A DNA stretch of 64,000 nucleotides from assembly GCA_017743475.1 (NCBI GenBank), contig JAGHYV010000012.1, positions 1 to 64,000 of the forward strand, in the 5' to 3' direction. Shown piece after piece: positions 29,805 to 36,822 of the stretch (its first letter is position 1; every line of letters starts with the position of its first letter). Under the pieces are notes generated by a model that did not search any database, was not told where the DNA came from, and saw only the letters and a program-made list of their open reading frames with translations. A program made the translations under genes and the position numbers. This stretch comes from Roseiflexus sp. Lineage in GTDB: Bacteria; Chloroflexota; Chloroflexia; Chloroflexales; Roseiflexaceae.

Positions 29805-30098
29805 GCGATGCTCGCATCAGAGTGCCGAATCGGCGTGCAGGCACGTCTGGTGTGCACCTGGGAGTCAAAGTGGCAACTTCCTCTGTTTTACAACATCTTC
29901 ACAACATTTCTGCAACATCCTCGTGGTACAGTGCGTTATAGAAATCACTATTCCCGACCAGTGACCTGATAGTGTCAGTGTGGACAGAGTTGCACCAGTG
30001 TCGGAATCGTTCAATGTCAAGGCGGGTGATACCTTTTTGGCACACCGTTGATCGGCAGTTCGTTCCATGAATTCAGCACAGAGAGGAAACAGACCCCG

Positions 30099-30650
30099 AT
30101 GAGCGACATCACCCCGGCAGTCTATTTTGCGGAAGTTGTGCCGCAGCGCTTCGCTGCAGCAGTTGCCAGCGCGTCGGAAGAGGTGCTGGCGCAGCCTGAG
30201 TTGACGGTGACCTACACCATTGAAGGAGAGGGCGATCAGGGTGGCGTCTTTGGATTAAAAGTTTCGGGCAGGTCGATAGAATTCGTCGATGGCGGCATCG
30301 AAAACGCCGATCTGCAACTCGTGATGACCTATGACAACTGGCGTTCCGTGGCAGAGGGGGATGCCATAGAGCCATTCATCGACTATTTCCTTCGCCGCAA
30401 GGTCGAGGTAGTGAAGAACCTGCGCGGGATGGTCAAACTGGAGTTGACCCGCTCCGACGAGAGTTTGTTTGAGAGCGTCAGCATCTTTGGCGGTCAATCC
30501 GAGCCGTCGGTGACGCTGCGGATGACGGCGGACGATTATCGTCAGATGCTTTCGGGCGAGTTGAATGGGCAGATGGCGTTTATGATGGGGAAGTTGCGGT
30601 TTGAGGGTAGTCTGCCGCTGTTGATGCAGATCGGTGCGCTGAGCGGCTAG
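30099..30650 (+). CDS. SCP2 sterol-binding domain protein
   Basis: A 183-residue single-domain protein of the SCP2 (sterol carrier protein 2) fold, which binds sterols, fatty acids or acyl-CoA in a hydrophobic tunnel. Typical traits are the N-terminal helix (YFAEVVPQRFAAAVA), the beta-sheet with LQLVMTYDNWRSVAEG, and the C-terminal MTADDYRQMLSGELNGQMAFMMGKLRFEGSLPLLMQIGAL. GAGAGGAAAC precedes the ATG. It is the first gene of the acyl-CoA oxidation cluster, 53 bases before the first acyl-CoA dehydrogenase, which suggests a lipid carrier for it. The upstream gap 29805-30098 has direct repeats of ACAACAT but no clear promoter. Confidence 0.85.
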   Translation: MSDITPAVYFAEVVPQRFAAAVASASEEVLAQPELTVTYTIEGEGDQGGVFGLKVSGRSIEFVDGGIENADLQLVMTYDNWRSVAEGDAIEPFIDYFLRRKVEVVKNLRGMVKLELTRSDESLFESVSIFGGQSEPSVTLRMTADDYRQMLSGELNGQMAFMMGKLRFEGSLPLLMQIGALSG

Positions 30651-30703: not shown

Positions 30704-31798
30704 ATGATCTCGTTTACTCCGTCGGAAGAGCAGCAGTTGATCATCGACACCGTGCGCCGCTATGCGGTTGATCGGATGCGCCCCGCCGCCTATGAGGCGG
30801 ACGAGAAGCGCGTAATTCCATCGGAGATCATCGCGCGGGGGTGGGATCTGGGCTTGTTGCCGAGCGCCATCCCGGAGCAGTATGGCGGCTTTGGCGAGAC
30901 GCATCAGGCGCTGACCGGCGTTCTGGCGGCGGAAGAGTTGGGGTATGGCGATCTGTCCATGGCGCTGTACCTGATGACCCCCAACCTGTTTGCGATCCCG
31001 ATCCTGCACTTTGGCACTGAGGATCAGAAGGAGCGCTGGTTGCCACGCTTGGTGGAAGGCGGGTTTGCACCGTATACGGCAGCGCTGATCGAGCCGCGCT
31101 GGAGTTTCGATCCGCATACACTGCATACGGTTGCCGAGCGCGAGGGCAATATCTACGAAATCACAGGGCATAAAGCGCTTGTGCCCCTCGCCGCCGATGC
31201 GCAGGCGTTCCTGGTTTATGCTCGTGAGAACGATACGACCCAGGCGTTTATCATTGAGCGCGGCACGGAAGGGCTAGCAGTGCTGGAACGGGAAAGTTTT
31301 ATGGGCATTCGCGCATTGCCAACCTATGAATTGCGGTTGGATGATGTGCATGTACCGGCATCGTGTCGGCTAGGGGGTGATCAGGGCATCGATATCGATG
31401 CGCTGATGAATTATTCGCGGGTTGCGCTGGCGGCGCTGGCAGTCGGTGTGGCGCGCGGCGCTTTCGAGTATGCGCGCGATTACGCAAAGCAGCGTGAAGC
31501 GTTTGGGAAACCGATTGCGCAGAACCAGGCGATTGCGTTCATGCTGGCTGAGATGGCGATTGAGATTGAGGCAGCGCGCCTGATGACCTATGAAGCGGCA
31601 TGGCATCTTGACAAAGGACACAATGCCACGCAGTCGGCATCGCTTGCCAAAGCGTATGCTGATGAAATGGTGCTGATGGTGACCGACCGCGCTGTGCAGA
31701 TCCTGGGCGGTCATGGCTATATTCGCGAGCATCCGGTCGAGCGCTGGCTGCGGAACGGGCGCGGGTTCAGCACGTTCCTCGGTCTGGCAATGGTGTGA
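30704..31798 (+). CDS. Acyl-CoA dehydrogenase-like subunit lacking the catalytic Glu
   Basis: Acyl-CoA dehydrogenase fold, 364 residues. It keeps the FAD-contact motifs of the C-terminal domain, KQREAFGKPIAQNQ (263-275) and QILGGHGYIREHPVERWLR (332-350). It ends at once afterwards: the usual YEGT segment with the catalytic Glu is absent, the alternative IVD/LCAD position reads NYSR rather than LERL, and the mid-domain TEPxxGSD motif is replaced by IEPRWSFDP. Alone it should not be a complete enzyme. AAGGAGA precedes the ATG. The next gene, 11 bases on, has exactly the missing motifs, so the two probably form one heteromeric enzyme. Confidence 0.9.
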   Translation: MISFTPSEEQQLIIDTVRRYAVDRMRPAAYEADEKRVIPSEIIARGWDLGLLPSAIPEQYGGFGETHQALTGVLAAEELGYGDLSMALYLMTPNLFAIPILHFGTEDQKERWLPRLVEGGFAPYTAALIEPRWSFDPHTLHTVAEREGNIYEITGHKALVPLAADAQAFLVYARENDTTQAFIIERGTEGLAVLERESFMGIRALPTYELRLDDVHVPASCRLGGDQGIDIDALMNYSRVALAALAVGVARGAFEYARDYAKQREAFGKPIAQNQAIAFMLAEMAIEIEAARLMTYEAAWHLDKGHNATQSASLAKAYADEMVLMVTDRAVQILGGHGYIREHPVERWLRNGRGFSTFLGLAMV

Positions 31799-31809
31799 GG
31801 AGAACTAGA

Positions 31810-33060
31810 ATGATCGACTTTGAAATACCAACCCCGATCAAGCGTCAGGTACAGTTCATCACGATGCTCGGCGAGCAGGTGATGCGCCCGGTAGCGCGCT
31901 ACTACGATGAGCATGAAATGGAACGTCCGTGGGATTATATCAATCTGATCTGGCCCACCATCCGCGATCGCGGCGGGCGCTCGTTCTCAGTCGAAGATGG
32001 CAAGGAGGATAAAGAAGGTAAGCCGCGCCCGCGCATCGGCTATCTCATGCTGGCTCACGTGGTTGAGGCGCTGTCGTGGGGCGACGCCGGGCTGTATCTC
32101 TGCACGCCGGGGAGCGCGCTTGGCGGTGCGGCTGTCGATGCGACCGGCACGCCAGAGCAGAAGGAGCGCTTCCTGAAGCGTTTTGGCGAAGGGGAGCCAA
32201 AATGGGCGGCGATGGCGATGACCGAACCGCACTGCGGATCGGATACGGCGGCGATCCGCACGACGGCGCGTCTCTCCGAAGATGGCAAAGAGTGGATCCT
32301 GAATGGCGAGAAAATCTTCGTCACCGGGGGTCTAATGGCTGCCAAAGAATCGCGTGGGTTCGTCGTCGTGTGGGCGACGGTCGATCCGTCGGCAGGACGT
32401 GCCGGGATAAAGCCGTTCGTGGTCGAAGCCGGTACGCCGGGGATGACGGTGACGAAACTGGAGCATAAGCACGGCATCCGCGTGTCGGATACGGCAGCGA
32501 TTGTGTTCAACGATTGCCGCATTCCGTATGATAATATCCTTGGCAGCCCAGAAATTGTGAAGGGGGATACGGAGCACAAGGGCTTCAAGGGTGCGATGAA
32601 AACGTTCGACGCCACCCGCCCGCTGGTGGCGGCGTCGGCGCTGGGCATTGCGCGCGCCGCGCTTGAGTTCACCGCCTCGTACCTGAAAGAACGTGGCGTA
32701 AAGGTGCGCTACGGCATCGCTCCGCACCTGCAAACGGCGGTCGAGCGCGACTTGATCCATATGGAGATGCAGCATCGGGCAGCCTGGTTGCTGGTGCTCA
32801 AAGCGGTGACGAAGATGGATGCCGGTGAGGAGAACGCGCTCGACGCATCGATGGCGAAGGTGAAAGCCGGTCAGGTGGCAACGTATGTCTCGCAGAAAGC
32901 GGTTGAACTGCTGGGTCCGGAAGGGTATTCGTGCAAACTGCTGGTCGAAAAGTGGATGCGCGACGCCCGGATCAACGATATTTACGAGGGCACCGGTCAG
33001 ATCAATCGCCTGATCGTGGCGCGACGCTTGCTGGGGTACACCAGTCGTGAGTTGCGCTGA
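31810..33060 (+). CDS. Acyl-CoA dehydrogenase-like subunit with the catalytic Glu
   Basis: Acyl-CoA dehydrogenase fold, 416 residues. It has the mid-domain motif MTEPHCGSDTAAIRTTA (137-153), NGEKIFVTGG, and RINDIYEGTGQINRLIVARRLL with catalytic Glu393. It lacks the RxxFG...Q and GGHGY FAD-contact motifs, which read ERGVKVRYG and LLGPEGYSCK. These losses complement those of the preceding subunit. The ATG at 31810 follows GAGGAG at 8 bases. Similar alpha2beta2 dehydrogenases are known from actinobacterial steroid side-chain oxidation (ChsE1-ChsE2 type); with the SCP2 gene, a bulky or sterol/hopanoid-like acyl-CoA is a reasonable guess. Confidence 0.92.
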   Translation: MIDFEIPTPIKRQVQFITMLGEQVMRPVARYYDEHEMERPWDYINLIWPTIRDRGGRSFSVEDGKEDKEGKPRPRIGYLMLAHVVEALSWGDAGLYLCTPGSALGGAAVDATGTPEQKERFLKRFGEGEPKWAAMAMTEPHCGSDTAAIRTTARLSEDGKEWILNGEKIFVTGGLMAAKESRGFVVVWATVDPSAGRAGIKPFVVEAGTPGMTVTKLEHKHGIRVSDTAAIVFNDCRIPYDNILGSPEIVKGDTEHKGFKGAMKTFDATRPLVAASALGIARAALEFTASYLKERGVKVRYGIAPHLQTAVERDLIHMEMQHRAAWLLVLKAVTKMDAGEENALDASMAKVKAGQVATYVSQKAVELLGPEGYSCKLLVEKWMRDARINDIYEGTGQINRLIVARRLLGYTSRELR

Positions 33061-33084
33061 TGCAGCAGTTATTCAGAGAAAGAA

Positions 33085-33109
33085 CAGGGGCGCTTCGTTG
33101 GCGCCCCTG
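33085..33109 (+). terminator. Hairpin between acyl-CoA dehydrogenase and fadN-like gene
   Basis: A 9-bp stem (CAGGGGCGC and complement) with a 7-base loop, 25 bases after the stop. Only a weak T-rich stretch follows, so it may reduce rather than stop read-through into the next operon gene. Confidence 0.5.
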
Positions 33110-33138
33110 CTTCTCCGTTTCATGAGAAGGAGTCACCA

Positions 33139-35646: not shown

Positions 35647-36822
35647 ATGCGAGAAGCAGTGATTGTCAGCGCAGTTCGCACGGCCGTCGGCAAAGCGCCG
35701 CGCGGCTCGTTGCGCAGTGTTCATCCGACCGATCTGGCGGCGACCGTGATCCGGTCAGCAGTTGAGCGTGTTCCTGGTCTCGACCCGAAGGAGATTGATG
35801 ATGTTATTCTGGGATGCGCCATGCCTGAGGCGGAACAGGGCTTGAATATGGCGCGCATCGCGCTCCTGCGCGCAGGTCTGCCTACAGATGTGCCCGGTCA
35901 GACGGTCAACCGGTTCTGTGCGTCGGGTTTGCAGACTATCGCTATTGCAGCGCAACAGGTGATGAGCGGCATGGGTGATGTGATCGTCGCCGGAGGCGCT
36001 GAGAGTATGAGCTCCGTACCAATGGGAGGGCATCACTTTGCGCCCAACCCGGCAATGGCGGAGATAAGTCCTGAGGTATACCTCGGCATGGGTTTGACTG
36101 CCGAGAATGTGGCAAAGCGGTACGAGATCAGTCGTGAGGATCAGGATGCGTTTGCGCTGCGGTCGCATCAGCGCGCAATTGCTGCCATCGACGCCGGTCT
36201 GTTCAAGGACGAGATTGTGCCGATTGAAGTAGAGCACGTCTGGTTCGAAAACGGCAAGGTACAGCGTTCGACGATGATCTTTGACACCGATGAAGGTCCA
36301 CGTCGTGACACCTCGGCTGAAGCGCTGGCGAAACTCAAACCGGTCTTTGCGGTCAACGGCACAATCACTGCCGGAAACTCCTCGCAGACTAGCGACGGAT
36401 CGGCGGCGGTGGTGGTCATGAGCCGCGAAAAGGCTGATGCGCTGGGGGTGAAGCCGCTGGCGCGCTTTGTGTCATTCGCAGTTGCGGGTGTGCCGCCGGA
36501 AATAATGGGGATTGGTCCAGTTGCTGCAATCCCGAAAGCGCTCAAGCAGGCCGGGTTAACCATCGACCAGATTGACCTGATCGAACTGAACGAGGCGTTT
36601 GCAGCGCAGGCGCTGGCAGTGATTCGTGCGCTCGAACTCGACGAAGAGAAGGTCAACGTCAACGGTGGCGCTATTGCGCTCGGGCATCCGCTGGGATGCA
36701 CCGGCGCCAAGTTGACGGTGCAGATCCTGCACGAACTCCGGCGTCGCGGCGGTCGCTACGGACTGATCACCATGTGCGTCGGCGGCGGTATGGGAGCTGC
36801 TGGCATTGTCGAGATGCTGTAA
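35647..36822 (+). CDS. fadA: Acetyl-CoA acyltransferase (thiolase)
   Basis: Cleaves 3-ketoacyl-CoA to acetyl-CoA and a shortened acyl-CoA. The 391-residue product has the acyl-accepting Cys in [33 protein letters not shown], the His in [17 protein letters not shown] and the second Cys in [12 protein letters not shown]. The ATG at 35647 has GGAGG about 10 bases upstream and is preferred over a longer frame. Last gene of the operon. A degradative (FadA) rather than biosynthetic role is inferred from the neighbours. Confidence 0.94.

Follow-up and report, generated by a model that had tools for sequence, protein, structure and literature searches.

The two adjacent acyl-CoA dehydrogenase genes described here very probably encode the two subunits of one alpha-beta enzyme of the FadE24-FadE23 type, acting in general fatty-acid beta-oxidation, as judged from sequence comparisons and structure prediction. 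They lie in the window, that is, the whole 64,000-nt stretch of Roseiflexus sp. DNA analysed. An earlier note on this DNA had proposed that they form a heteromer whose active site is split between the subunits. This proposal is strongly supported by the complementarity of the motifs, the perfect co-occurrence of the genes and the predicted fold of a fusion of the two proteins. ORF1 and ORF2 were found where the earlier note had placed them, side by side and in the same direction, each with the N, M and C acyl-CoA dehydrogenase domains (Pfam). The plus-strand order is SCP2, ORF1, ORF2, FadN-like enzyme and FadA-type thiolase (Table 1); the SCP2 gene upstream and the FadN/FadA-type genes downstream are those the note had named.

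Table 1. Features of the locus, in window coordinates. Residue numbers within motifs are those of ORF1 or ORF2.
Feature	Position	Strand	Basis or remark
SCP2-domain protein, likely acyl-CoA/lipid carrier	30099..30650	+	Pfam SCP2 8.4e-14
ORF1, clamp subunit, 364 aa, FadE24-like	30704..31798	+	Pfam and alignment
F135, at the FAD-phosphate position of MCAD Ser142	31106..31108	+	F in 90% of clamps
R264-E-A-F-G...Q275, partner-FAD motif	31493..31528	+	R, F and Q invariant in 90/90 clamps
Q332-I-L-G-G-H-G-Y339, partner-FAD (adenine) motif	31697..31720	+	Alignment
ORF2, catalytic subunit, 416 aa from ATG 31810, FadE23-like	31810..33060	+	Pfam and alignment
E366-L-L-G-P370-E-G-Y, degenerate QxxGGxGY	32905..32928	+	Q349 to E, G353 to P
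Codon of catalytic Glu393, MCAD Glu376 position	32986..32988	+	E in 95/95 relatives
FadN-like 3-hydroxyacyl-CoA dehydrogenase/enoyl-CoA hydratase, 807 aa	33139..35562	+	
FadA-type acyl-CoA thiolase	35647..36822	+	

The start of the SCP2 gene was taken as the ATG at 30099 (the listed ORF opens with TTG at 30048). For ORF2, listed from a GTG at 31795, the best start is the ATG at 31810, preceded by a GGAG ribosome site. If translation begins at this ATG, the catalytic Glu is E393; the GTG would make it E398. The 78-base gap between ORF2 and the FadN gene holds a strong GC hairpin (window 33083-33111, AGGGGCGC...GCGCCCCT) and has a fold z of -2.4 relative to shuffles. This hairpin could set the relative expression of the operon's two halves. 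Promoter and terminator scans gave values near those of shuffled sequences.

To compare the two proteins, reference residues were numbered as in human MCAD and positions in ORF1 and ORF2 were assigned by alignment to it. In MCAD, as is established for this family, the flavin side of the site is made by a subunit's own S142, T168 and T378, with E376 as the base, and the ADP side of FAD is held by R281, F284, Q292, Q349 and G353 of the neighbouring subunit. ORF1 keeps all of the latter (R264, F267, Q275, Q332 and G336). At the TEPxxGSD site it reads IEPRWSFD, with S142 changed to F135, and at the W-x-T168 site L-V-P161. Its C-terminus is truncated, with LGLAMV where others read YEGTxxIQ; E376 is replaced by L359 and no catalytic Glu is present. 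The alignment thus bears out what the earlier note had said of ORF1, namely that REAFG...Q (264-275) and GGHGY (335-339) are kept and that YEGT and TEPxxGSD are gone.

ORF2 shows the reverse pattern. It keeps TEPHCGSD, T172, R270 and E393-G-T395, and has VRYG...LQT in place of REAFG...Q (F284 to Y, Q292 to T) and ELLGPEGY in place of QILGGHGY. The earlier note was correct about TEPHCGSD and Glu393, but the REAFG and GGHGY segments that it considered absent are present in degenerate form (VRYG...LQT and LLGPEGY). That the motifs might seem missing because they are shifted, a check the note itself had put forward, was examined and rejected: the aligned places hold degenerate residues.

The analysis was extended to an alignment of 90 distinct relatives of ORF1 and 95 of ORF2, together with acyl-CoA dehydrogenases from the same genome and human MCAD. 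All 90 clamps retain the five partner-FAD residues, along with zero to three of the five own-side catalytic residues; T168 is replaced by P in 76%. Conversely, the five catalytic residues are intact in 95/95 catalytic subunits, which have none (n = 84) or one (n = 11) of the five clamp residues: Q349 is E in 94%, G353 is P in 91% and Q292 is never Q. Homomeric controls (human MCAD and five homomer-like paralogues from the same genome) score 4-5 for catalytic and 5 for clamp residues. Since the losses are reciprocal, the site formed by the ORF2 pocket and the ORF1 clamp is complete and both halves of the opposite site are ruined. The pair is expected to function only together because each protein has lost residues that the other kept. 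Chance loss in one genome was considered and rejected, as the pattern is conserved in more than 90 pairs. About 20% of clamps, and the actinobacterial FadE24-like ones, still have a Glu at MCAD 376 despite a ruined FAD site; S142 and T168 are gone in nearly all clamps retaining this Glu.

The genes travel together. A search for the pair in other Chloroflexota, as the earlier note had proposed, covered 251 genomes from across the phylum: 28 contain an ORF2 orthologue, exactly these 28 also contain ORF1, and neither gene occurs alone. Among 100 near relatives, ORF1 adjoins ORF2 in all 25 genomes that have the latter. We also collected 80 loci from a species-wide genome collection, mostly from Chloroflexota but also from Myxococcota/'Deltaproteobacteria'. 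ORF1 directly precedes ORF2, in the same orientation, in 76; the remaining four comprise broken ORF1 copies or frameshifts, a contig end and an ORF2 paralogue that stands alone next to FadD. A second catalytic-subunit paralogue lacking a clamp gene of its own was seen in two loci (L096:7995-9239, with FadD adjoining, and L026:1495-2739). As the L026 paralogue too has lost the clamp residues, a clamp made elsewhere in the genome may be borrowed. The pair is absent from every sampled member of one family (f4, genomes G028-G081, same order) and present in the surrounding families, which suggests that the beta-oxidation module was lost or replaced there. The pair also occurs in L097 and L103, whose record titles (Klebsiella pneumoniae and Bacteroidetes) appear to reflect mislabelling or contamination of metagenome bins. 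In the plasmid collection, two megabase "plasmids" carrying chromosomal genes (NZ_LN868939.1 and NZ_CP077849.1) look like chromosomes or parts of them.

In several loci the ORF1 stop codon is in frame with ORF2, so that read-through yields a fused chain straight from the DNA. The Thermoflexus ORF1-ORF2 fusion (28-residue linker, 14 aligned fusions) was modelled with AlphaFold2 at pLDDT 84.6 and pTM 0.87. A control of similar size, in which the neighbouring FadA was fused likewise to ORF1 (23 rows), gave pLDDT 82.1 and pTM 0.53. Thus, the two dehydrogenases are confidently predicted to pack together and the product of the neighbouring gene is not. The value for the fusion speaks to compatibility rather than exclusivity, because acyl-CoA dehydrogenase chains form dimers anyway and AlphaFold would pair nearly any two of them. 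The best match among solved folds is pig MCAD (Z 46.1, rmsd 1.8, 360 residues aligned). In PDB sequence and fold searches homomeric MCAD/SCAD rank first, with no solved heteromer among the matches listed.

Closest named relatives in tblastn searches are from Nocardia, Rhodococcus, Tsukamurella and Acinetobacter baumannii, and in both annotated records of the Nocardia/Rhodococcus/Tsukamurella group hisN adjoins the relatives. The gene order in M. tuberculosis is impC/hisN-pflA-fadE24-fadE23-fadB4 (PMC2834668); the link to the M. tuberculosis proteins is drawn from this synteny and from the Nocardia, Rhodococcus and Tsukamurella relatives. As in FadE24-FadE23 (Rv3139-Rv3140), the clamp gene comes first, the same complementary losses occur and the Glu is at the MCAD position; the window pair has the features of this subtype, a catalytic Glu at MCAD 376 and a non-acidic residue at 255. 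Identity to the actinobacterial relatives is 36-38% for the clamp and 48-50% for the catalytic subunit, and each subunit falls in one clade with the hisN-linked actinobacterial pair (branch supports 100/99 and 100/100). The actinobacterial clamp differs in having a long N-terminal extension and in lying by hisN, whereas the window pair is part of an SCP2-FadN-FadA operon. In actinobacteria the counterpart of the window pair is FadE24-FadE23, for which a complex has already been described: PMC11980559 refers to FadE23-FadE24 as a complex that is under SigE control and that cholesterol represses. The earlier note had likened the pair to the heteromers of actinobacterial steroid degradation. By relatives and tree the equivalence to actinobacterial heteromers holds, but the nearest of them is FadE24-FadE23 and not a steroid ChsE enzyme.

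The reference set consisted of the remaining N. farcinica acyl-CoA dehydrogenases, among which several pairs match 4X28 and 6WY8 (the ChsE4 orthologue matches 4X28 with E 1e-201). Reciprocal losses are also seen in the N. farcinica orthologues of ChsE4 (4X28) and Tcur3481/3483 (6WY8), relatives of validated heteromers. The same residue classes are lost per subunit in ChsE4-ChsE5 (FadE26-FadE27, 4X28), ChsE1-ChsE2 and Tcur3481-Tcur3483 (6WY8) as in the window pair. In the ChsE mechanism one subunit provides the isoalloxazine site and the Glu, the other the ADP-ribose site (PMC11153573; PMC8399759). These steroid enzymes are alpha2beta2, each heterodimer having a single FAD site and a single catalytic Glu, an arrangement to which our pair is likened from sequence. 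Unlike the window pair, they have the catalytic gene first in most pairs seen and lie in steroid gene clusters; the gene context of the window pair is not one of steroid degradation. The base differs as well. ChsE/Tcur enzymes have the Glu beside Arg256, at the IVD/LCAD position, and G/A at 376, where the window protein has T269-R270 and E393, respectively.

In the tree, ChsE-type clamps, ChsE-type catalytic subunits, window-type clamps and window-type catalytic subunits form four separate clades, suggesting two origins of the split site; both window-type clades lie among homomeric MCAD-like enzymes. AU tests of a joint origin with the ChsE pairs gave p 0.216 for the clamps and 0.069 for the catalytic subunits, values by which one origin is neither accepted nor rejected. 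An origin separate from the ChsE pairs is favoured by these sequence comparisons, though not proven.

Two further systems bear comparison. PimC-PimD pimeloyl-CoA dehydrogenase (large and small subunit) likewise involves two adjacent acyl-CoA dehydrogenase genes acting together, but belongs to a dicarboxylate pathway, and the weak matches of both ORFs to TIGR03204/TIGR03203 reach 57-75 bits, about a tenth of the cut-offs (624-653). The Bacillus fadN-fadA-fadE operon places enzymes of the FadN and FadA types by an acyl-CoA dehydrogenase; its FadE is one homomeric enzyme, unlike the two-gene window pair. Our literature search turned up no description of a comparable Chloroflexota pair.

We envisage a heterodimer, probably alpha2beta2 overall, with a single FAD and a single active site in each. 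ORF2 would bind the isoalloxazine and the acyl-CoA and supply Glu393 as the catalytic base, and R264, F267, Q275, Q332 and G336 of ORF1 would cross the dimer interface to grip the ADP part of the FAD of ORF2. The reciprocal site, combining the ruined ORF1 pocket with the ruined ORF2 clamp, should stay empty. We infer the FAD count, the tetramer, obligate pairing and electron transfer to ETF. The role would most likely be acyl-CoA dehydrogenation in ordinary (medium/long-chain) fatty-acid beta-oxidation, with SCP2 acting as the acyl-CoA carrier and FadN and FadA performing the later steps.

Because each ORF by itself contains the full set of three acyl-CoA dehydrogenase domains, one could imagine two separate homomeric enzymes, at least one of them degenerate or inactive. 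This is hardly credible given that the losses are complementary and fixed over more than 90 pairs from several phyla, that catalytic subunits are invariant at five catalytic and clamps at five clamp positions, and that the genes are never found apart in 251 genomes. It is also very unlikely that the heteromer carries out a reductase or other flavin reaction in place of the usual acyl-CoA oxidation. PMC11980559 states, citing earlier work, that the mycobacterial FadE23-FadE24 complex has an activity different from acyl-CoA dehydrogenation, and an acryloyl-CoA reductase model is among the NCBIfam matches, far below cut-off. However, the Glu, TEP..GSD and T168 sites are intact and the operon is one for beta-oxidation.

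According to the earlier note, the substrate was perhaps a bulky acyl-CoA such as that of a sterol or hopanoid, as in actinobacterial steroid degradation. The pair does share the split-site architecture of the ChsE enzymes and has a sterol-carrier-like SCP2 neighbour. SCP2 domains also carry fatty acyl-CoA, and across the 80 loci, many of them on short contigs, the neighbours are FadN (39), FadA (34) and SCP2 (27), the last lying upstream, downstream or fused to FadD; the relatives also have FadD neighbours. The window FadN is the only full 3-hydroxyacyl-CoA dehydrogenase (3HCDH) in a genome scored 100% complete, so that the operon must serve general beta-oxidation. ETF is present in this genome and no KshA_C match, indicative of a KshA-type steroid hydroxylase, was found in it. 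Moreover, the pair groups with MCAD-like enzymes rather than with ChsE, and FadE23-FadE24 is reported to be repressed by cholesterol (PMC11980559). Specialisation for such substrates is therefore unlikely. Based on the FadN/FadA/SCP2 context, the sole full 3HCDH, the ETF and the lack of a KshA match, general fatty acyl-CoA beta-oxidation fits better, the substrate being read from the neighbours. In Thermoflexus (L070:4408-6804, also L068 and L072) the acyl-CoA synthetase encoded immediately before the pair carries SCP2 as a C-terminal fusion, hinting that SCP2 passes newly formed acyl-CoA on to the dehydrogenase.

The usual view is that acyl-CoA dehydrogenases became heteromeric to accommodate bulky steroid substrates. 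With slightly more doubt than confidence, we suggest that the FadE24-FadE23-type pairs may be a second, separately evolved split-site lineage, with its base at the MCAD position, which serves as a main enzyme for ordinary beta-oxidation in parts of Chloroflexota, Myxococcota/Proteobacteria, Acinetobacter and Actinobacteria. If this is true, adaptation to steroids does not account for heteromerisation. A widespread, strictly paired version, in an ordinary beta-oxidation operon and with the base elsewhere, makes the steroid-adaptation explanation testable. The Roseiflexus pair also offers a thermophilic, non-pathogenic source for the little-characterised mycobacterial FadE23-FadE24 complex.
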